DNA from: a virus
IMG/VR virus record: IMGVR_UViG_3300012936_000001
Coordinates: 103,119 to 167,118 of that record
DNA: 64,000 nt
Strand: one strand, 5' to 3'
Made by a program: the position numbers and the translations under genes. Below, piece after piece: positions 3,672 to 41,310 of the stretch. Below the pieces are notes generated by a model that had not been told where the DNA came from, ran no database searches, and worked only from the letters and a program-made list of their open reading frames with translations. How positions within the stretch are numbered: position 1 is the stretch's first letter; the number at the start of each line of letters is the position of its first letter.

Positions 3672-4121
3672 ATGGTTGAAATATTTTCACAGTGGATTGC
3701 GACCCATAAAGCAGTCACATCATGGTTCCATGCTGCTCACCACCTTACAAAAGGTGTTGGGTTCGGCGGGGACCATGTTAACATTTACGGAAAGATATAT
3801 ACAGAATTTCAAGAAGACTTTGATGCTATAGTTGAAAAAGGGCTTGGGTTATGTAACGATGAGACGCTAGCAGATCCTCTCACCATATTGTCATCCGCAT
3901 CCACAATGTTAGGCCAATACTTTCAGCCATCAAATTCTTGCCCAGATAAATTAGCCATCGCTGCATGTGAATTGTCAAAAAGATATGTCGATTTATTACA
4001 GCAGTTTTATACGAGGTTTGAGTCCTGTGGGCATTTAACTATGGGTCTTGACGACATGATGGCAGCCATGGCAAATCGATACGAAACGCATGTTTATCTA
4101 CTACAACAGAGAGTAAAATAA
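3672..4121 (+). CDS. Ferritin-like / Dps-like protein
   Basis: Probable four-helix ferritin-like protein. The segment TSWFHAAHHLTKGVGFGGDHVNIYGKI through FQEDFDAIVEKGLGL resembles the Dps helix-A/B region, in which a His and an Asp/Glu series bind iron at the subunit interface; the length of 149 aa fits Dps. Dps proteins store iron and protect DNA from oxidative damage. AGGAG sits 7 bases before the ATG. The gene stop and the next start overlap by one base. The fit is by pattern only and the ferroxidase residues are not fully conserved by eye. Confidence 0.55.
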   Translation: MVEIFSQWIATHKAVTSWFHAAHHLTKGVGFGGDHVNIYGKIYTEFQEDFDAIVEKGLGLCNDETLADPLTILSSASTMLGQYFQPSNSCPDKLAIAACELSKRYVDLLQQFYTRFESCGHLTMGLDDMMAAMANRYETHVYLLQQRVK

Positions 4122-7568: not shown

Positions 7569-8282
7569 ATGAAAATAGATCTTTATGACGATGGTATTGG
7601 CTCCGTAGAATATGTACAACATATGGGAGAAGATATCACAGTGGTAAATTCTGCCCGAGTATCTTTTGGAAAACATAAGGAAACGATGGATGGCAAAGAC
7701 AAAAAACTCATCAAGTATCTCTTACGTCATCGTCATACTTCTACACTCGAGCATAATATTGTCACTTTTCGTTTTGTTGTTCCTCTTTATATTCGTTCGC
7801 AGCATCATCGTCATCGTACTTGGTCTTACAATGAAATTTCTAGAAGATATACGGAAGAGAATATAAGATTTTATGAACCAAAAGAATTCCGAACTCAGCA
7901 CAAATCCAATCGCCAGGCATCAAACATAGATAAAGTAAATCCAATCATGGGTTATTATGAAGACGGCGGACCCTCGTACGCTGACTCCCTAATAAGGCGG
8001 CATCACCTAGACTCTCTACATCTCTATAACGACTTAATGTCAAAAGGTGTTTGCAGAGAACAAGCTCGAGGAGTTTTGCCTCAAAATATGTATACGGAAT
8101 ATTACGGAACGTGCAATCTGAATAATCTCATAAAATTCTATGAACTCAGGACTCACGAAGGCGCACAATGGGAGATTCAAAAATTAGCACACGCTTGCAT
8201 GGATATAGCAAAAACTCTCTGGCCGATCACAATAGACTCCTATATTAGTCTAAAAAATAAAAGATTGGATTCAAAAAAATAG
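7569..8282 (+). CDS. thyX: Flavin-dependent thymidylate synthase ThyX
   Basis: Makes dTMP from dUMP with methylene-tetrahydrofolate and FAD/NADPH. The diagnostic ThyX motif RHR-x7-S is intact at residues 81-91 (RHRTWSYNEIS). Other family segments are the N-terminal VNSARVSFGK, RHRHTSTLEHN, and EQARGVLPQNMYTEYYGTCNLNNL. Length 237 aa is typical. AGGAG precedes the ATG. Its presence beside a ThyA-like gene at 15127 means the second enzyme may do something other than dTMP synthesis. Confidence 0.96.
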   Translation: MKIDLYDDGIGSVEYVQHMGEDITVVNSARVSFGKHKETMDGKDKKLIKYLLRHRHTSTLEHNIVTFRFVVPLYIRSQHHRHRTWSYNEISRRYTEENIRFYEPKEFRTQHKSNRQASNIDKVNPIMGYYEDGGPSYADSLIRRHHLDSLHLYNDLMSKGVCREQARGVLPQNMYTEYYGTCNLNNLIKFYELRTHEGAQWEIQKLAHACMDIAKTLWPITIDSYISLKNKRLDSKK

Positions 8283-18314: not shown

Positions 18315-21300
18315 ATGTTACTAGATGAACTTTTAGAAAGCGTAATAATGGCAGCGCATGCATTGAACGAAAAAGATGCATCAAAAAGTCTAGACGAAGT
18401 AGAAGGAGATGAGGAGAAAGACGACTTTGGTGAATTTAATAAGTACATTGACAGAATAACAAAGAATTCAAAAAGTTTGGAAGATTTGCTCAAAAAGGAA
18501 CTCGGCGACAATGAAGGTGCTAAAAGTATCCTTTTGCCTTTTGAAACTACGCGAACACTCTTGTTAGGGACACAGGAAACGATAGCGAATCCAAAAACAG
18601 ATTTTCAAGATCCAAAAAATGAAAATGCGAAACAAATAAATAGCACTTTGCAAAATTTTATGATCAATCTTGTATCACTGCGAAGAGGGCTGGAAAGTCT
18701 AGCGGAATGGTCAAAAGGCTTAGATAAGATAGGAATTAAGGACGCACAATTTAATAAGTTGTTTGGTGTTGTTCAAAAAGAATCAATGATTCATAAATCT
18801 AGTCTTTCTTCTCTGCTATTAGAAATGAAATCACCAGAAGACTATCCTGCTGGATCTATTGCAAAAGCGATTGCAAACCTTGCCAATTTCAACGTTAATC
18901 TAAAAGACGTTTTTGACCCAGACGGAAGAGAACATAAATTAGTAATCAATTATTTTAAGAAGCTGGATGACAACATTGGCAAATTAGAAAAGACGCTAGG
19001 AAACAAAAAAGCACTTGAAAGCGAAATTGATAAATTTTTCAAAACAAGACCAGGCCAAGGTGTCATTGCAGCTGCCTGGTCCTTTGCTAAGTCAATGGTG
19101 GCATCCTTTTTTAAGCCGGCACCTATTGGCGATGGAACAATTCTTAATGCTAGGCAAGCCATGGGATCAATAGAAGAACCATCAGGCCTCTTGTTTCTTA
19201 GTCCAAAGCAGATCATAGATATAAACGAGAAGGTCAACACTGGTCTCAAGGACATGAAGAAGAATGTCTCTATCGTGCGGGACATGCTCGCATTCGGCGG
19301 AAAAGACGCAGACAGAATCCAGGCATACATCAAGGATAACGAAATAGAGGCCGACGATTATCTAGAAGATCTAGATGCAAATATAGACTGGGACAAAGAA
19401 AAAGACTACAAGAAGCTAAAAGCGGCAATGATATCGTCAGACTATTATGGAGAATCCTATCAGGTTCAAAAAAATCTAATACACAAGAACACGATGCAAA
19501 ATCTTTTGTTCGAAGACGCAGAAGAATTTGTCGATCTTTGGAATCAATTTCTCTCAAAAGGTAACAACATAACCCAGAAGACAAAGGAAGCCGGGACCCT
19601 CCTGTTTCCGAAATTATCAGATGATTATGACTGGAGTGGTGAAACCCTAAATTGGGAAAAGAAAAAAGAGCCCGACATGGCTTTTCCGCAAGGTAGCCTT
19701 TATCCCTCCTCTGACGACCCAGAATTTCGAGCGATATTGAAAAAGGTTGAGAAGAAAGAACCTCTCTCAGACGAAGACCAAAATAAATTAAAGGAATTAG
19801 TGAAGGAAGAACCATATAAAAAAGCAGATCTCGCACAGGCCTTCATCGAAGACAAAGGTAATGATATCAATAACGCAGATTTGGCCAATCAGATTGCTGA
19901 CATTATTACGTTAGGTAACGATGAAGTATTGCTGTCTGCGGTTGACGATGACAGAGAGCAGATCAACAAAACCTTAGAAGAAAAAGGAATCCCGTATGCA
20001 ATCAACGCAGAAAAGGATGATGACGGCAAACCCATTGCAATTAGATTGATAAGGGTTGAAGATAAGCCAGAGCGCGGAATAAATCTGCCCGCCGGTAAGA
20101 CAAAGGTCTCAAGGGCTGCGATGAAGGCTTTATTTCCCGATAAAGATGAGATAATCACCCAAGCACTCGCCGCGTTAGGAAATTACGAATTGATCGAATC
20201 TAATAAATTGCTGCACAGAAATTCACTAGCCCAGTTATTATCCGAAGAAAAACAATCGCTATTAAAGTACATTGTTTCTTATTATAGCAAGAACGCTATT
20301 GATCAAACCCAAAAACACTGGGAAAATACCCCGGGAGCCAAAGACGCGGCACTGAAAAGACTGAACAATATGCTAATACAAAAGAAAGATGTGCTCAAGG
20401 AAAAAGGAATTGATCTTGATGAAGAAATAGAGATTGCCGAAGAAGAGCCAGGTGAAACAACGATTACACTAGAGCCTGGTAAATACCCTGATCCAAAAAG
20501 CGCCGAGGAGGAACTTGACAGCTCACCTGTGACTGATGATCTACCAACCGCGGAAAAGAAGAAAGTAGCGTCAGTCATGGTTGGTGTATCACAGAAAGAA
20601 ACAACGCCTCAAGAAGCTAACGCTGAATTGTTTGGCACTGGCTTGGGAGTAATGACCCCCACAGGTAAACCCTTGGAGTTGGTCGAAGAGGAACCTCCTC
20701 CACCCAAGCCGAAGAAGGAAGAAGGGCAGCCGGTACCCGATGAGAAAGAAACATTTTATTATTCTTTTACACCGCTGAACACATTTAGGCCTACCAAGAC
20801 CAAAATCGCTACAGTTGAAGAAATCATAGCCAATATGAAGAACGATAGCATCGCGTCGCATATGGTTTATTTATCTGCAAAAGATGGTTGGTCTATGAAC
20901 ACTTTTGGCTCCTTTGACAACGACTGGCCTCAGGTCCTAGGAGGATCCTCGGATGCTGCCTCTGAGAAAAAAGGCGTCTCAAAACAAAAAATCAAATCCC
21001 TATTCAGCAACACTACTTCGAAATTCTACGACGACCTTGAATATAAATATACCGGCAAAGACGGCAGCAACAGCAAACGTGATATGGGCAGTTCGTTGAT
21101 GATGCATATTCCAAAAGCTATTGCTTCAGCAACCGGCCTGGAGCTGACAGAATCTCGCCTTATTCACAAGTCAAGTCTATCATCTCTTCTCAGAGAGGCT
21201 TCTGTTTTTGATAAAATATTTGATGAGTTTCATTCTAGTTTTGCTAAGAAAGCGCAAGATAAAGATGGAGGAATATTCAAAAAAGAACCATTGAAAAAAT

Positions 21301-22253
21301 TCCTAAGAGGCATTTTTGAGAAGGAAGAATTAAAATCCGTCATGAAAGACTTAGGGGTCGACGATGTTTTCTCCGGTGGAACAGATGATGAAGAACCGGA
21401 AGCAGACGTTCAACCAGTGAGTGTGCCAAAAACTGGCAGCCCAAAGGAGGATGTGGAGAAAGACCTCAACAAAGCCGGGATCCAAAATTCGAAAGAAGTT
21501 GCTAATGACCTTGATGCGGATGGAGATGGCAATATAACGTCCAAAGAAGCTGAGGATCTTGCAAAGAAAAAGGAGGACATAACCGCCAAACCTGGGGAAG
21601 ACGATTCAACTAATCTTATTGTGGAACCTTCCGCCGAACAGAAAGATTCGGGCACAAAGATAAGCAGAAAAACAGACTTGAGAGATTTCACCGAAGATGA
21701 ACAAGATACCATCGAACTGGCGCTTGCCGACATATTAGATGGAGATATTGTAACAGAATCCAGCCTACACAAACTTGGACTAGGCATTTTACTTGAAAAC
21801 AAAGCAAACGATTTTGTAGAGCTGTTATTTGATTCTGGCCTAGAAGCTGAGCAGGTTCAAACCATTATCAAGAAGATAAAAGACAACAAGGATCTTAGCG
21901 ACAAATTAAAGAAGCTCGGCATAGATATGGAAGAGACATCAGAAAAATCTATTCCAGGCGTAACTATTCGACCGAAATTTATGGACCTCATTAATAAAAA
22001 GAAAAAACAACTAGCAACCCAAGCATTCACGCGAGATCCAGAAGAGGGTGGTATAAAAGGTCTTCCTGGGGTCAATGTATTGAAGAAAATGTTCGGGGAC
22101 CCGACACAAGTTGCTAATATCGAAAAGACTTATAACTATATTGCCAAGAAAACAGTAAAGGCTCCAATCTTTCCAGAAGGAAAGCGCAGCCCCAAATCAA
22201 AACTTATTCACAAACGTAGTCTTACCGAAGCATTATTTAGTGACGATGACTAG
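18315..22253 (+). CDS. 1312-aa repeat polyprotein, probable processed virion protein
   Basis: Not a recognised family. Six copies of a motif [S/N/K/R]-[L/M]-I/L-H-K/R-x-S-L-x-x-L-L-x-E occur at residues 157-170, 387-400, 631-644, 948-961, 1149-1161 and 1297-1308 (last one incomplete at the C terminus), dividing the chain into blocks of roughly 150-320 residues. Each copy ends in L-x-E, like a T4-type prohead-protease site, and the N terminus LLDELLE-S has one too. Block 5 has a canonical EF-hand loop DADGDGNITSKE (1067-1078 starting at Asp1067). Blocks are acidic, helical and rich in K/E/D. Inferred: a polyprotein cut into several internal head or scaffold-like proteins. Start ATG at 18315 follows AGGAG. 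Confidence 0.85.
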   Translation: MLLDELLESVIMAAHALNEKDASKSLDEVEGDEEKDDFGEFNKYIDRITKNSKSLEDLLKKELGDNEGAKSILLPFETTRTLLLGTQETIANPKTDFQDPKNENAKQINSTLQNFMINLVSLRRGLESLAEWSKGLDKIGIKDAQFNKLFGVVQKESMIHKSSLSSLLLEMKSPEDYPAGSIAKAIANLANFNVNLKDVFDPDGREHKLVINYFKKLDDNIGKLEKTLGNKKALESEIDKFFKTRPGQGVIAAAWSFAKSMVASFFKPAPIGDGTILNARQAMGSIEEPSGLLFLSPKQIIDINEKVNTGLKDMKKNVSIVRDMLAFGGKDADRIQAYIKDNEIEADDYLEDLDANIDWDKEKDYKKLKAAMISSDYYGESYQVQKNLIHKNTMQNLLFEDAEEFVDLWNQFLSKGNNITQKTKEAGTLLFPKLSDDYDWSGETLNWEKKKEPDMAFPQGSLYPSSDDPEFRAILKKVEKKEPLSDEDQNKLKELVKEEPYKKADLAQAFIEDKGNDINNADLANQIADIITLGNDEVLLSAVDDDREQINKTLEEKGIPYAINAEKDDDGKPIAIRLIRVEDKPERGINLPAGKTKVSRAAMKALFPDKDEIITQALAALGNYELIESNKLLHRNSLAQLLSEEKQSLLKYIVSYYSKNAIDQTQKHWENTPGAKDAALKRLNNMLIQKKDVLKEKGIDLDEEIEIAEEEPGETTITLEPGKYPDPKSAEEELDSSPVTDDLPTAEKKKVASVMVGVSQKETTPQEANAELFGTGLGVMTPTGKPLELVEEEPPPPKPKKEEGQPVPDEKETFYYSFTPLNTFRPTKTKIATVEEIIANMKNDSIASHMVYLSAKDGWSMNTFGSFDNDWPQVLGGSSDAASEKKGVSKQKIKSLFSNTTSKFYDDLEYKYTGKDGSNSKRDMGSSLMMHIPKAIASATGLELTESRLIHKSSLSSLLREASVFDKIFDEFHSSFAKKAQDKDGGIFKKEPLKKFLRGIFEKEELKSVMKDLGVDDVFSGGTDDEEPEADVQPVSVPKTGSPKEDVEKDLNKAGIQNSKEVANDLDADGDGNITSKEAEDLAKKKEDITAKPGEDDSTNLIVEPSAEQKDSGTKISRKTDLRDFTEDEQDTIELALADILDGDIVTESSLHKLGLGILLENKANDFVELLFDSGLEAEQVQTIIKKIKDNKDLSDKLKKLGIDMEETSEKSIPGVTIRPKFMDLINKKKKQLATQAFTRDPEEGGIKGLPGVNVLKKMFGDPTQVANIEKTYNYIAKKTVKAPIFPEGKRSPKSKLIHKRSLTEALFSDDD
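18783..22238 (+). repeat. Six dispersed copies of an IHKSSLSSLLxE-type motif
   Basis: Copies at about 18783-18824, 19473-19514, 20205-20246, 21156-21197, 21759-21797 and 22203-22238, encoding the motif described for the polyprotein. Copies 1 and 4 share the ten residues IHKSSLSSLL exactly. Spacing is irregular, which fits motif duplication with diverse inserts rather than simple tandem repetition. Confidence 0.85.
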
Positions 22254-37373: not shown

Positions 37374-38981
37374 ATGAGTGAAGATGTCACATCAAAAAAA
37401 ATTCTATTTGAAGAAGATGCAAGGTCAGAGCTTCTAGAAGGGGTTTCTAAATTAGCGCAGGCTGTAAGTACAACCATGGGGCCTGGTGGCCTCAACGTTG
37501 TTATCGAAAGGCCAGGCATGGTTCCTGTTCTAACAAAAGATGGTGTGACTGTAGCCAAAGCTGTCAATCTAAAAAATGAAATGCAAAACCTTGGAGTCCA
37601 ACTAGTAAAAGAAGCAGCACAAGGTTCTGCAGAAATTGCAGGAGATGGAACCACAACAGCGACAGTTTTGGCTCATTCTATTTTTTCTCGAGGGCTCAGA
37701 GCCATCAATGCCGGTCATAACCCTGTACAAGTTCGCAACGGAATAAAGGCTGCGACTGAATGCGTAATTCAGGATCTGGTTGCAAAATCAAAAAAGATCG
37801 AATCGGACAATGAAATTATTGATGTTGGTACTATCTCTGCAAACGGCGAACAAGAAATAGGGGAACTCTTATGCAAGGCAATGAATGCTGTCGGTATGGA
37901 CGGGGTGATTGCAGTAGAAGAAGCGAAGGGTTTCAAGACTAGTCTAACCACAATGGAAGGCCTACGCCTAAACCGGGGGTTCATCTCTCCGTATTTTATC
38001 AATGATTCCGCAAAGGGAGTTTGTGTACTTGAAAAACCGTTGGTTCTTCTGGCAAATAAGACAATACGAAATATCAAAGAGATTCTTCCCATCCTTGAAA
38101 AGGTTCACCAGATGCAAAGATCTCTGTTAATAGTTGCAGAAGAAGTAGAAGGCGAAGCTTTGAATGCTCTAGTTCTTAATAACACAAAGGGAATCCTGAA
38201 ATGTTGTGTTATCAGAGCGCCGGAGTTCGGCCAAGGAAGAATTCAGACAATGGATGATCTTGCTCTTTTGCTTGGGACAGAAGTCATATCTTCTTCTGAT
38301 GAAAATTCAATAGCCGGTTTTGATTGCAGCGCACTCGGAACATGTACGAAAATTACTATTAGCAGAAATGAAACAGTGGTTATCGGATCTAATTGTGATG
38401 CCAAAGATCTAAGAGATAGAGCACGAGAACTACGAGAATACATCGAAAGCTCAATATTGTCACCAGACGAGGAGTCTGTTCAAAGAAGAAGGCTAGCCAG
38501 ATTGTCTGGTGGTGTAGCCATATTACGGGTTGGAGGATCAACCGAGGCAGAACTTCGCGAAAGAAAAGACCGAGTGGAAGATGCGTTGCATGCAACTCGG
38601 GCTGCAGTATCTTCTGGTATCTTGCCAGGCGGTGGAACTGCTTTGCTACGATCAGCCGAGAGATATAGAAACACGAAACACTCAGGAAAAGATGCAACAG
38701 CCGACTGGAAGATTGGCTTCAATATCGTGATTGACGCATGTAAAGACCCTATATACAAATTAACAAAGAACGCTGGACAAGTACCGGAACTTATAATCGC
38801 AAAGACTCTTGAACTCAAGGCTTCAATGGGCTTCGACGCAAGGAAAGAAGAGTGGGTTAACCTTATAGACGCAGGAATAATAGACCCAACATTGGTCGTA
38901 ACGTCAGCTTTACGACACGCTACTTCTGCAGCAGATAATCTCCTATCTGTTGCTTGTGCAATGACTATTGAAAAAAATTAA
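37374..38981 (+). CDS. groEL: GroEL-type chaperonin
   Basis: 535 aa. Full-length group I chaperonin: VSTTMGPGGLNVVIER, TKDGVTVAKAV, EIAGDGTTTATVLA (ATP-binding loop), ARLSGGVAILRVGGSTE, and GILPGGGTALLR all match. The C-terminal GGM tail of bacterial GroEL is missing. No GroES-like gene in the window, so it may use host GroES or an out-of-window partner. Phage GroEL (as in some Pseudomonas jumbo phages) folds phage proteins. Likely cotranscribed with the small genes before it. Confidence 0.95.
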   Translation: MSEDVTSKKILFEEDARSELLEGVSKLAQAVSTTMGPGGLNVVIERPGMVPVLTKDGVTVAKAVNLKNEMQNLGVQLVKEAAQGSAEIAGDGTTTATVLAHSIFSRGLRAINAGHNPVQVRNGIKAATECVIQDLVAKSKKIESDNEIIDVGTISANGEQEIGELLCKAMNAVGMDGVIAVEEAKGFKTSLTTMEGLRLNRGFISPYFINDSAKGVCVLEKPLVLLANKTIRNIKEILPILEKVHQMQRSLLIVAEEVEGEALNALVLNNTKGILKCCVIRAPEFGQGRIQTMDDLALLLGTEVISSSDENSIAGFDCSALGTCTKITISRNETVVIGSNCDAKDLRDRARELREYIESSILSPDEESVQRRRLARLSGGVAILRVGGSTEAELRERKDRVEDALHATRAAVSSGILPGGGTALLRSAERYRNTKHSGKDATADWKIGFNIVIDACKDPIYKLTKNAGQVPELIIAKTLELKASMGFDARKEEWVNLIDAGIIDPTLVVTSALRHATSAADNLLSVACAMTIEKN

Positions 38982-38987
38982 TTTTTT

Positions 38988-39053
38988 TTGAAAAAACTGT
39001 GTACTCCGATTAAAATGTGATTAAATTACTTAAGCAAAGTCATTCAATCGGAG
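38988..39053 (+). promoter_or_regulatory. Promoter with RBS-masking arms before the sigma gene
   Basis: TTGAAA (38988-38993), 17-base spacer, TAAAAT (39011-39016). CTCCGATT (39004-39011) can pair with AATCGGAG (39046-39053), which holds the sigma gene's RBS CGGAGGG. The left arm lies just before and at the -10, so a local transcript would not contain it. Same plan as loci at 6558, 8664 and 35726. Confidence 0.6.
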
Positions 39054-39058
39054 GGAAC

Positions 39059-39805
39059 ATGAACGATTCTGTCAAAGCGTATACAAAATCTGCTACGCGT
39101 CACAAATTATTAACCAAAGAGCAAGAGCAAGACCTTGCACGACGAATGTCAAATGGGTGTGTTAAGTCTCGAGATAAGCTTATATCATCTAATCTCAGGC
39201 TCGCTTTGTCGGTTGCGAATAAGTACCGAGGTTCAAAAGTCTCTATGGAAGACCTGATCCAAGAAGCCAACGTAGGTCTTATACGGGCTGTCGATCGGTT
39301 CGACCATAAGAAAGGATTCCGATTCTCAACGTATGCAATCTGGTGGATTCGACAAGCGGTAAAAAGATTTATTGCTTCACAGTCGCATGTTAAGTTTCCT
39401 ACAGGTTCTCGTCATACTATCTGGAAGATCAATAACGCCCGCAAAGAATACGAGCTCGAGTTCGGAGTGATGCCTTCAGATGGAGAGGTAGCTGAAATTC
39501 TTGGGCTAGATGCAAAACTCGTATCTGATCTTCGGTTCGGAATGCAATGGCCTGTTGATATCGATAAACCCATGGGAGATGAATCTGGCGCGAGAACCTT
39601 TGGAGACACATTGGTCGACGAAAATGCAGTCAACATCGAAGAAGAACTTGATAATCAAAAGTTACTTCAGATTATTCGAAATGCTTTTGCATCGTTGAAG
39701 CCCCAAGAGGAAAAAGTGCTGCGACTAAGATTTGGAATAAGCGAACACGAAGAGGATTTATCAATAACAAAAAAAGAATACAACAAAATCAAGGAGGGCA
39801 AATAA
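39059..39805 (+). CDS. Sigma-70 family RNA polymerase sigma factor lacking region 4.2
   Basis: 248 aa from the ATG at 39059 (CGGAGGG upstream). Regions 2.1-2.4 are strong: NLRLALSVANKYRG, MEDLIQEANVGLIRAVDRFD, GFRFSTYAIWWIRQAVKRFI. Region 3 follows (EVAEILGLD), and the chain ends near the start of region 4 (ASLKPQEEKVLRLRFGISEHEEDLSITKKEY), with no helix-turn-helix 4.2 after it. The next gene, in another frame, holds a helix-turn-helix-like segment. Directs phage-promoter transcription with host core polymerase. Frame ends at a clear TAA. Confidence 0.9.
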   Translation: MNDSVKAYTKSATRHKLLTKEQEQDLARRMSNGCVKSRDKLISSNLRLALSVANKYRGSKVSMEDLIQEANVGLIRAVDRFDHKKGFRFSTYAIWWIRQAVKRFIASQSHVKFPTGSRHTIWKINNARKEYELEFGVMPSDGEVAEILGLDAKLVSDLRFGMQWPVDIDKPMGDESGARTFGDTLVDENAVNIEEELDNQKLLQIIRNAFASLKPQEEKVLRLRFGISEHEEDLSITKKEYNKIKEGK

Positions 39806-39806
39806 T

Positions 39807-40064
39807 ATGCCAATGCCAAAAGGAAAAAAACATACACATGGATATGCAACTGTCTCCGGAGTAGGAAAGGGCTTTCGGGAGATTGCCGAGCAGATGACAA
39901 GTGAAGGAAAAAAGATGAATCATGCGACAGCAAGAAATTATTTTTTGCGAGCAATGGAGAAATTAGCTAAGCCACTGTCCGAATATTCTGGCCGATCAGC
40001 AAATGATATTGCTTCAGACGTAAGATTTCAAACAGCAGTAGCAGACCTTTTGAGAAATAAATAA
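39807..40064 (+). CDS. Possible separately encoded sigma region 4.2-like protein
   Basis: 85 aa. FREIAEQMTSEGKKMNHATARNYFLRAMEKLAKPL resembles a region 4.2 helix-turn-helix: a helix, a turn and a recognition helix with T-A-R-N ... K-L. The gene starts one base after the sigma stop in the +1 frame. It could be a split sigma domain, or a small DNA-binding regulator of its own. Ends with a one-base overlap to the next gene. Confidence 0.5.
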   Translation: MPMPKGKKHTHGYATVSGVGKGFREIAEQMTSEGKKMNHATARNYFLRAMEKLAKPLSEYSGRSANDIASDVRFQTAVADLLRNK

Positions 40065-40351
40065 TGAACGTCTTTGGCCTTATCAAGAACGACCTAATGT
40101 CTTTGTCAATACAGACTGAATTACTAGAACTTTTAGACTGGAACGAAGAGGCATTAGAGGTATTTGTCCTACATGTATCGCAAATTATTAATGGTCTCAT
40201 GATTGTACAAGATAATTATAATTTACAGCTTGATAGCATTAGGAGAAAAATCTCTGACATGTCTGACGATAAGGCTGCAGATTTAGTAATAAAACTTATT
40301 CGAAATCATGAAGAGGAAATAATAAACTTTGAAAAGGAGAAATCAAATTGA
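40064..40351 (+). CDS. Unknown 95-aa protein
   Basis: Helical throughout, acidic (SIQTELLELLDWNEEALEVFVLHVSQIINGLMI). Overlaps the next gene's TTG by 4 bases. No motif recognised. Confidence 0.45.
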   Translation: MNVFGLIKNDLMSLSIQTELLELLDWNEEALEVFVLHVSQIINGLMIVQDNYNLQLDSIRRKISDMSDDKAADLVIKLIRNHEEEIINFEKEKSN

Positions 40352-40608
40352 GTAAGAAAATTGAATGGGTGTACTTTTCCAAAAGAAGAAACATAGACTT
40401 GGTAGAACTTATAAAAAAAGGACAGTGCCAGTCTTATGAAGAATTATGTAAAATTTGTGAAGTGTATCAAGTAATACCTCCTACGATTAGCGAGTGGCAA
40501 ATATGTGAATCACAAGCTTTACCAAAACCAAAGGTTGTCCCTTCCAAGAAGCCCGAGACAAAAAAACCTACAAAAAGGACGACAAGGGCCAGGAAAGCAA
40601 AATCATGA
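40348..40608 (+). CDS. Unknown 86-aa protein with basic tail
   Basis: TTG start at 40348 overlapping the upstream stop, GGAG upstream. Folded-looking N half (SYEELCKICEVYQVIPPTISEWQICES) and a Lys/Arg/Pro/Thr-rich tail (KKPETKKPTKRTTRARKAKS) that could bind nucleic acid. No family recognised. Confidence 0.45.
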   Translation: MSKKIEWVYFSKRRNIDLVELIKKGQCQSYEELCKICEVYQVIPPTISEWQICESQALPKPKVVPSKKPETKKPTKRTTRARKAKS

Positions 40609-40766
40609 GACAAATTTTAATTCCAATACTTTATGCGTTCTGCATAATAAACTGCATCAATATGGGAATCTGTATTGGCATCGGGAATTATTCGAGTGCT
40701 TTGTTTGCTTTTGGGTGTTTTGCACTGTGCGGGTACGGCATTTGGTCAGACAAAAAAAGAGGATAA
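40605..40766 (+). CDS. Small two-span membrane protein
   Basis: 53 aa from the ATG at 40605 (ATGA overlap with the previous gene). Two hydrophobic segments, ILIPILYAFCIINCINM and ALFAFGCFALCGYGIWS, and a short basic end (DKKRG). Ends one base before the deformylase start. Function unknown. Confidence 0.5.
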   Translation: MRQILIPILYAFCIINCINMGICIGIGNYSSALFAFGCFALCGYGIWSDKKRG

Positions 40767-40767
40767 T

Positions 40768-41310
40768 ATGTACAGAAAGATTATACAGTTTCCAAATAAA
40801 AGACTGCGTACGAAAACTAAAAAGGTGGAGAATTTTGAATCCATTCAAAATATCGTAAAAGACATGGTCGATACATGTAATGTTGAAATGGCTGTAGGGC
40901 TCGCCGCGAATCAAATAGGGTATGATAGGTCAATTGTCGTTATAGACATAGCCAAATCTGGAGCACAACAAACTATCCAAGGTTGTGAAATAAACCCTAA
41001 TTTTTTGGTAATCTGTAATCCAAAATTATCTGTAGATGGCGAAGACCGGGCATGGCAGGAAGAATGTTTGTCGTTATCAGGTGTTCAGGGAAAAGTAACC
41101 CGGAAGTCGAATGCAAAAATAAAATATCAGAATGAAAACGGAGAACATAAAGAACTCGAGGCCAAGTGGCCATTCTCCGGAGTGTTACAGCACGAGTGCG
41201 ATCATTTAGAAGGTATCACCTTTAATTTTAGAATGAGAAAATATGCTGCACAAAGAATGATAAATAAATTATACAAATCTAGAAAATTGAATTCAAGGGG
41301 GAAAAAATGA
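40768..41310 (+). CDS. def: Peptide deformylase
   Basis: 180 aa. Removes the N-formyl group from new proteins. All three family motifs are present: GLAANQIG (motif I), EECLS (motif II, metal Cys) and QHECDHLEG (motif III with HExDH-type metal ligands). The ATG at 40768 is preceded by AGAGGA; the longer open frame back to 40675 covers the small membrane gene in another frame. Phage deformylases (as in cyanophages) are common auxiliary genes. Confidence 0.94.
   Translation: MYRKIIQFPNKRLRTKTKKVENFESIQNIVKDMVDTCNVEMAVGLAANQIGYDRSIVVIDIAKSGAQQTIQGCEINPNFLVICNPKLSVDGEDRAWQEECLSLSGVQGKVTRKSNAKIKYQNENGEHKELEAKWPFSGVLQHECDHLEGITFNFRMRKYAAQRMINKLYKSRKLNSRGKK

Follow-up and report, generated by a model that had tools for sequence, protein, structure and literature searches.

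We found that the 64,000-nt stretch of DNA analysed here (the window; bases 103119–167118 of an IMG/VR viral record of 167,118 bases) encodes a sigma-70 family factor that ends between regions 4.1 and 4.2, with a small helix-turn-helix (HTH) protein encoded directly behind it. This gene split is conserved among viral loci, the two ORFs carry independent translation signals, the split sigmas form a single clade, and both proteins have diverged in parallel. We consider it probable that the pair is a two-polypeptide sigma-70 factor, in which the break falls inside sigma4, after 4.1 and ahead of 4.2, and the small protein presents its HTH to the −35 element in trans. Region 2 of the larger protein would bind the host core RNA polymerase and read the −10 element, while the two region-4.1 helices and the small protein's HTH would together make up a single composite sigma4 at the beta-flap. 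The second HTH helix would then face −35 DNA, and we propose that promoter choice for this reason needs both proteins. For the pair we infer flap binding, −35 reading, use of the host RNA polymerase and a dependence of transcription on both proteins.

The window encodes a sigma factor that lacks region 4.2

The 248-aa protein is an RpoD-like member of the sigma-70 family, about 35–40% identical to bacterial RpoD-like proteins, and has regions 1.2, 2, 3 and 4.1 without region 4.2 (Table 1). Besides region 2, Pfam matched region 1.2 (4e-8) and region 3 (3e-4; at 21.2 bits this is under the 25.3 cut-off, which the related sigmas of loci L220 and L050 exceed). Within region 4 the match to Sigma70_r4 is restricted to the model's first 22 positions and is weak alone (14 bits), although the RLRFG motif is present. 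SigA and RpoD sequences from the PDB align up to residue ~229–232, the end of region 4.1, and a few reach 241–244. The first-pass annotation of this DNA had placed the end of the sigma just before region 4.2, and both searches bear this out. The next ORF begins one base past the sigma stop (TAA 39803–39805, ATG 39807; the sigma ATG is at 39059) in the +1 frame relative to the sigma, and its 85-aa product contains the HTH-like segment with the FREIA...TARN pattern, again as first described.

Table 1. Coordinates of the sigma locus and its neighbours in the window
Feature	Position	Strand	Basis
Truncated sigma-70 family factor, 248 aa, regions 1.2-2-3-4.1, without region 4.2	39059..39805	+	Pfam, PDB sequence alignment, tree
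Sigma region 2 (−10 recognition, core binding), residues 41–109	39179..39385	+	Pfam Sigma70_r2 6.6e-23
Region 4.1, residues 209–235; region-4 homology stops here	39683..39763	+	Pfam Sigma70_r4 positions 1–22 of 50
Short ITKKEYNKIKEGK-like tail past 4.1 in place of region 4.2	39764..39802	+	Relatives: 5–32 aa past RFG[LI]
Shine-Dalgarno (SD) AAGGAGGG of the small ORF, within the sigma gene 3' end	39791..39798	+	
85-aa HTH protein, proposed region 4.2 in trans	39807..40064	+	
HTH helix 1, residues 23–32, predicted counterpart of the third helix of sigma4	39873..39902	+	AF2 model
Long HTH helix 2, residues 39–61, starts HATARN; proposed −35 recognition helix	39921..39989	+	AF2 model; ARN nearly invariant
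Phage GroEL-like chaperonin, conserved upstream neighbour	37374..38981	+	Pfam Cpn60_TCP1 1.9e-58; in 100 related loci
95-aa ORF, no assigned function, overlaps the small ORF	40064..40351	+	In 14 related loci
86-aa ORF, no assigned function	40348..40608	+	In 21 related loci
Putative peptide-deformylase-like protein, conserved downstream neighbour	40768..41310	+	In 45 related loci

Within the contig, which may be incomplete, Pfam detected neither a second sigma nor any further region-4 signal; the sole region-4 signal is the 4.1 half of the 248-aa sigma itself, so that no Pfam-recognisable region 4.2 lies elsewhere in it. Nor was a gene for the beta subunit of RNA polymerase found in the contig, which counts in favour of a two-part sigma acting on the host RNA polymerase.

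The locus forms part of a cassette (window 37374–41310) that is common to a large group of uncultivated phages and runs GroEL, sigma, small HTH protein, two small ORFs and peptide deformylase, the last of which is putative, named from its sequence rather than from a profile search. Elsewhere in the window, seven different proteins (at 4121, 31788, 59059, 59795, 60219, 60644 and 61156) start with M(K/R)ITKRQLKRIIREEYSRLxxRGLI, a common N-terminal module that may serve as a targeting or prohead sequence. In a 1312-aa ORF (18315–22253), LIHKxSLxxLL motifs recur with low-complexity stretches separating them, and the protein looks like a string of similar units.

The split is conserved across viral loci

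A two-member profile made with a related virus (L001 and L002, two contigs of one virus) yielded the small-protein motif KMN[HY]xxARN. Scanning IMG/VR with this motif, which is blind to the sigma, returned 110 loci. The small protein is encoded at every one (E 1.6e-13 at worst); a related sigma ORF lies on the same strand in 104 of them, and in the other six the small ORF is near the edge of the stretch. The reverse scan used sigma region-2 peptides and was blind to the small protein. It returned 80 loci, and every one has a sigma without region 4.2 in the same polypeptide and the small protein just downstream. As the two scans overlap in many contigs, these counts are not independent. The arrangement is more than chance, and the first-pass annotation had understated it. 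It had also entertained homologues with an intact region 4.2; among the 80 close sigma relatives there are none. Thirty-one of these 80 had been labelled 'intact?' owing to a loose profile end, and none of their tails exceeds 29 aa, bar one 55-aa simple repeat and one altered RFG.

In the motif-scan set, 80 of 81 distinct sigmas stop within the short distance past RFG[LI] given in Table 1. The exception is the L001 sigma, which continues for 102 aa past RFG[LI], in a frame overlapping the small ORF. In bacterial and phage sigmas that are intact, region 4.2 belongs to the same ORF and the tails measure 37–89 aa, mostly 45–58; no small protein was found near the intact-sigma loci examined. A tree that excluded region 4.2 placed all 28 sampled split sigmas in one group (SH-aLRT 96), with several long branches that make the exact position of this group unsure. 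Across 55 pairs, distances between sigmas correlated strongly with those between small proteins (Mantel r 0.87; none of 2000 permutations reached this value), which indicates that the two proteins have travelled together.

That the contig is metagenomic might suggest a sequencing error or the decayed pseudogene of an ordinary sigma. However, scores of distinct, deeply diverged contigs share the arrangement with both ORFs conserved, and we rejected both possibilities as extremely improbable.

Spacing of the two ORFs argues against a frameshift

An SD of its own precedes the small ORF, with the AGGAGG core 9 nt ahead of the ATG. Such a core occurs at 3–11 nt in 56 of the 81 distinct relatives' small ORFs, a count inflated by start codons having been picked partly by their SD, compared with 8% of random ATGs. 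Between the two ORFs, ATGA-type overlaps and gaps of 0–26 nt are common. The first-pass annotation had left two explanations standing, a split or frameshifted sigma and a protein devoted to −35 recognition in trans. Programmed frameshifting or read-through into a single full-length sigma could draw on an A7 run at 39769–39775 and on the overlap of the open frames. However, the offset from sigma to small ORF among relatives spans −269 to +488 nt in all three phases, so no conserved frameshift could serve; there are in-frame stops, the second ORF has an SD and ATG of its own, and genes intervene in many relatives. We therefore rejected frameshifting, to which we give very little credence, and the trans-acting protein is left as the better supported of the two. 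No fused sigma–small-protein ORF was found among the loci.

About half of the split-sigma families have another gene between the sigma and the small protein. A gap of ~180–280 nt separates 42 of the 81 distinct pairs, and in those inspected a small ORF occupies the space. The intervening products usually belong to a family of ~75–95 aa with an N-terminal hydrophobic or transmembrane segment and an LNxRLxxIQxxxFSP-like tail (28 of 42 fit the pattern; L020, L066, L034, L049, L024, L087, L019, L101, L058 and others), which could be a tether or regulator of the pair. Two divergent split-sigma loci instead have an unrelated gene of ~155 aa between the halves (L022 1422–1886 and L035 4056–4526), a putative dual-specificity phosphatase by sequence.

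The small protein is predicted to complete sigma4

Sequence profiles give no significant link between the small protein and region 4.2. Searches of Pfam, PHROGs and PDB sequences with the 85-aa protein and with a 56-member alignment of its family gave only scattered weak matches and none to an unrelated DNA-binding family, as the first-pass annotation had envisaged, and tblastn with four different members found no match in 50,697 annotated phage records. When the small family was compared by hhalign with region 4 of 48 intact sigmas, P was 0.06–0.29, which is not significant (7 of 200 column shuffles scored equally high), and the turn of the small family was ~4 residues longer. The profile comparison proposed at the outset gave no significant result for the region-4 assignment, for which the composite model described below is the stronger test. 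In a small-protein set that was not selected by its motif, ARN and FQ are nearly invariant and the residues ahead of ARN vary (KMNH, PMKH, KMRH, EISI). Such variation would suit the start of a DNA-reading helix with drifting specificity.

Modelled alone with AF2, the 85-aa protein forms a two-helix HTH (Table 1; pLDDT ~92) and a C-terminal helical piece. A fold search with this model returned nothing at E ≤ 0.001 (the top rows were P450 noise) and gave only a weak match, to the DosR HTH (Z 3.9). We also built a composite AF2 model from locus L050, whose two ORFs are in frame across the TAA, in which the sigma from region 3 on was read through the stop, taken as a residue, into its own small protein. 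The high-confidence helices of this composite are those of 4.1 (90–109 and 113–123) and of the small-protein HTH (168–177 and 184–206), the latter with a pLDDT of 96–98 compared with ~92 for the small protein of the window alone. It superposed on AlgU sigma4 with Z 9.7 (2.0 A over 78 residues; model 85–206, both pieces in one superposition) and on Taq SigA region 4 with −35 DNA with Z 8.7 (3.7 A over 71 residues). The FixJ HTH fitted equally well (1.9 A over 81 residues), which makes this the HTH fold common to sigma4 and LuxR-type proteins. The small protein is therefore predicted to complete a sigma4 fold together with 4.1, in a model that is a tethered read-through of one relative, built without an unrelated-HTH control.

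These data also bear on another view of the small protein, as an independent transcription regulator or a sigma-appropriation protein (with an AsiA/MotA-like role) that just happens to share an operon with a sigma lacking region 4.2. The lack of a tie to region 4.2 by sequence, the extra C-terminal helical part with its conserved FQ motif and the gene that separates the halves in about half of the families would all fit such a role. Set against this are the strict reciprocal co-occurrence of the two proteins exactly where region 4.2 is missing and the composite sigma4 model, and we regard a separate regulator as quite unlikely.

Candidate promoters and a −10-only alternative

On the coding strand, mostly 18–34 nt ahead of gene starts, we observed a ATACTTATA-like element that has no clear −35 partner and is the best candidate for a (late) promoter in the contig. 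Sites occur at 8282 and 34053 of the window and in L301 (16012), L302 (13354, 17156), L303 (5177, 10166, 19508) and L304 (19212). A second candidate class does have a −35 partner, TTGTAA or TGTGTA/TTGTGTA lying ~17 nt ahead of TATAAT-like boxes (window 8723, 35779 and 39058; L304 115 and 19304), and the site upstream of the sigma gene itself reads TGTGTA-N17-TTAAAT. A search for gapped −35/−10 pairs yielded only TTGTAA-N17-TATAAT-like sites.

The absence of a clear −35 partner from the ATACTTATA class is the main caution against −35 reading and would suit a T4-like −10-only system. As with gp55 and gp33 of T4, the truncated sigma might then read only a −10-like element, and the small protein might be a coactivator that clamps the flap but does not recognise −35 DNA in a sequence-specific way. 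The ATACTTATA-like sites without a −35 consensus resemble T4 late promoters, and gp33 sits on the flap in the place of sigma4 (PMC7892883); the hydrophobic C-terminus of some small-protein relatives points the same way. However, the sigma of the window, unlike gp55, retains regions 3 and 4.1, gp33 is described as structurally unrelated to sigmaR4 (PMC7892883) while the composite is modelled as sigma4-like, and no sliding clamp of PF02916 or PF00712 was found in the contig, which may be incomplete. We consider this alternative unlikely.

Implications and comparison with known systems

Sigma4 is usually treated as a single unit that serves both the −35 box and the beta-flap; if the two-polypeptide reading is true, it can also function when divided between two chains. 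The conserved 4.1/4.2 cut would offer a simple test of the coupling between flap binding and −35 reading and a natural split sigma for engineered logic, and a small family without a Pfam or PHROG model would gain a predicted function. Our broader proposal is tentative, and we hold it with more doubt than confidence: throughout an ancient lineage of large GroEL-encoding phages, sigma domain 4 may be an obligate heterodimer inside one small fold, whose −35-reading half can be supplied, withheld or, where a membrane-protein gene lies between the halves, tethered separately, as a natural AND gate on promoter recognition.

Ordinary RpoD/SigA-type sigmas share regions 1.2, 2, 3 and 4.1 with the sigma of the window and differ in having region 4.2 in the same polypeptide. 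T4 gp55 is not known to have any part of sigma4; the sigma of the window, by contrast, keeps 4.1, and its composite is modelled as sigma4-like, unlike gp33. No Pfam or PHROG match joins the pair to gp55/gp33, and structure and family searches with the small protein gave no gp33 among the matches listed. The resemblance is that of a phage sigma without a complete sigma4 to which a small beta-flap partner is added, gp55 itself consisting of a sigmaR2 domain and an HLH motif (PMC7892883).

Jumbo-phage sigmas, of a minimal single-HTH type and with gp33 orthologues in 'group 2', are likewise phage-encoded and recruit the host RNA polymerase (PMC7824862), as we propose here; that review describes minimal and complete sigmas, and we found no mention of a 4.1/4.2 cut in it. 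In SPO1, gp33 and gp34 are encoded by adjacent phage genes (with a 4-bp overlap) and are needed for late transcription. The gene order is reversed, however, gp34 has a weak region-4 HTH match (residues 137–169), and gp33 falls in a separate Pfam family, PF25742 (1.9e-38), without an HTH match; the small protein of the window does not match that family. With no meaningful BLAST similarity and a different family, SPO1 gp33/gp34 were rejected as direct homologues.

Our searches of annotated phages, bacterial relatives and the openly accessible literature turned up no other sigma divided between 4.1 and 4.2. SigO–RsoA (YvrI–YvrHa) of Bacillus subtilis resembles the window pair in that two proteins from adjacent genes jointly make one sigma (PMC8103513, PMC10141391). 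Compared by domain layout, SigO–RsoA has sigma2 and sigma4 each whole on different proteins (PMC8103513), whereas the window pair has 1.2-2-3-4.1 on one chain and is cut inside sigma4, with no whole sigma4 on the partner. Two-subunit sigmas are thus already known, and what is new here is the position of the cut, between 4.1 and 4.2.
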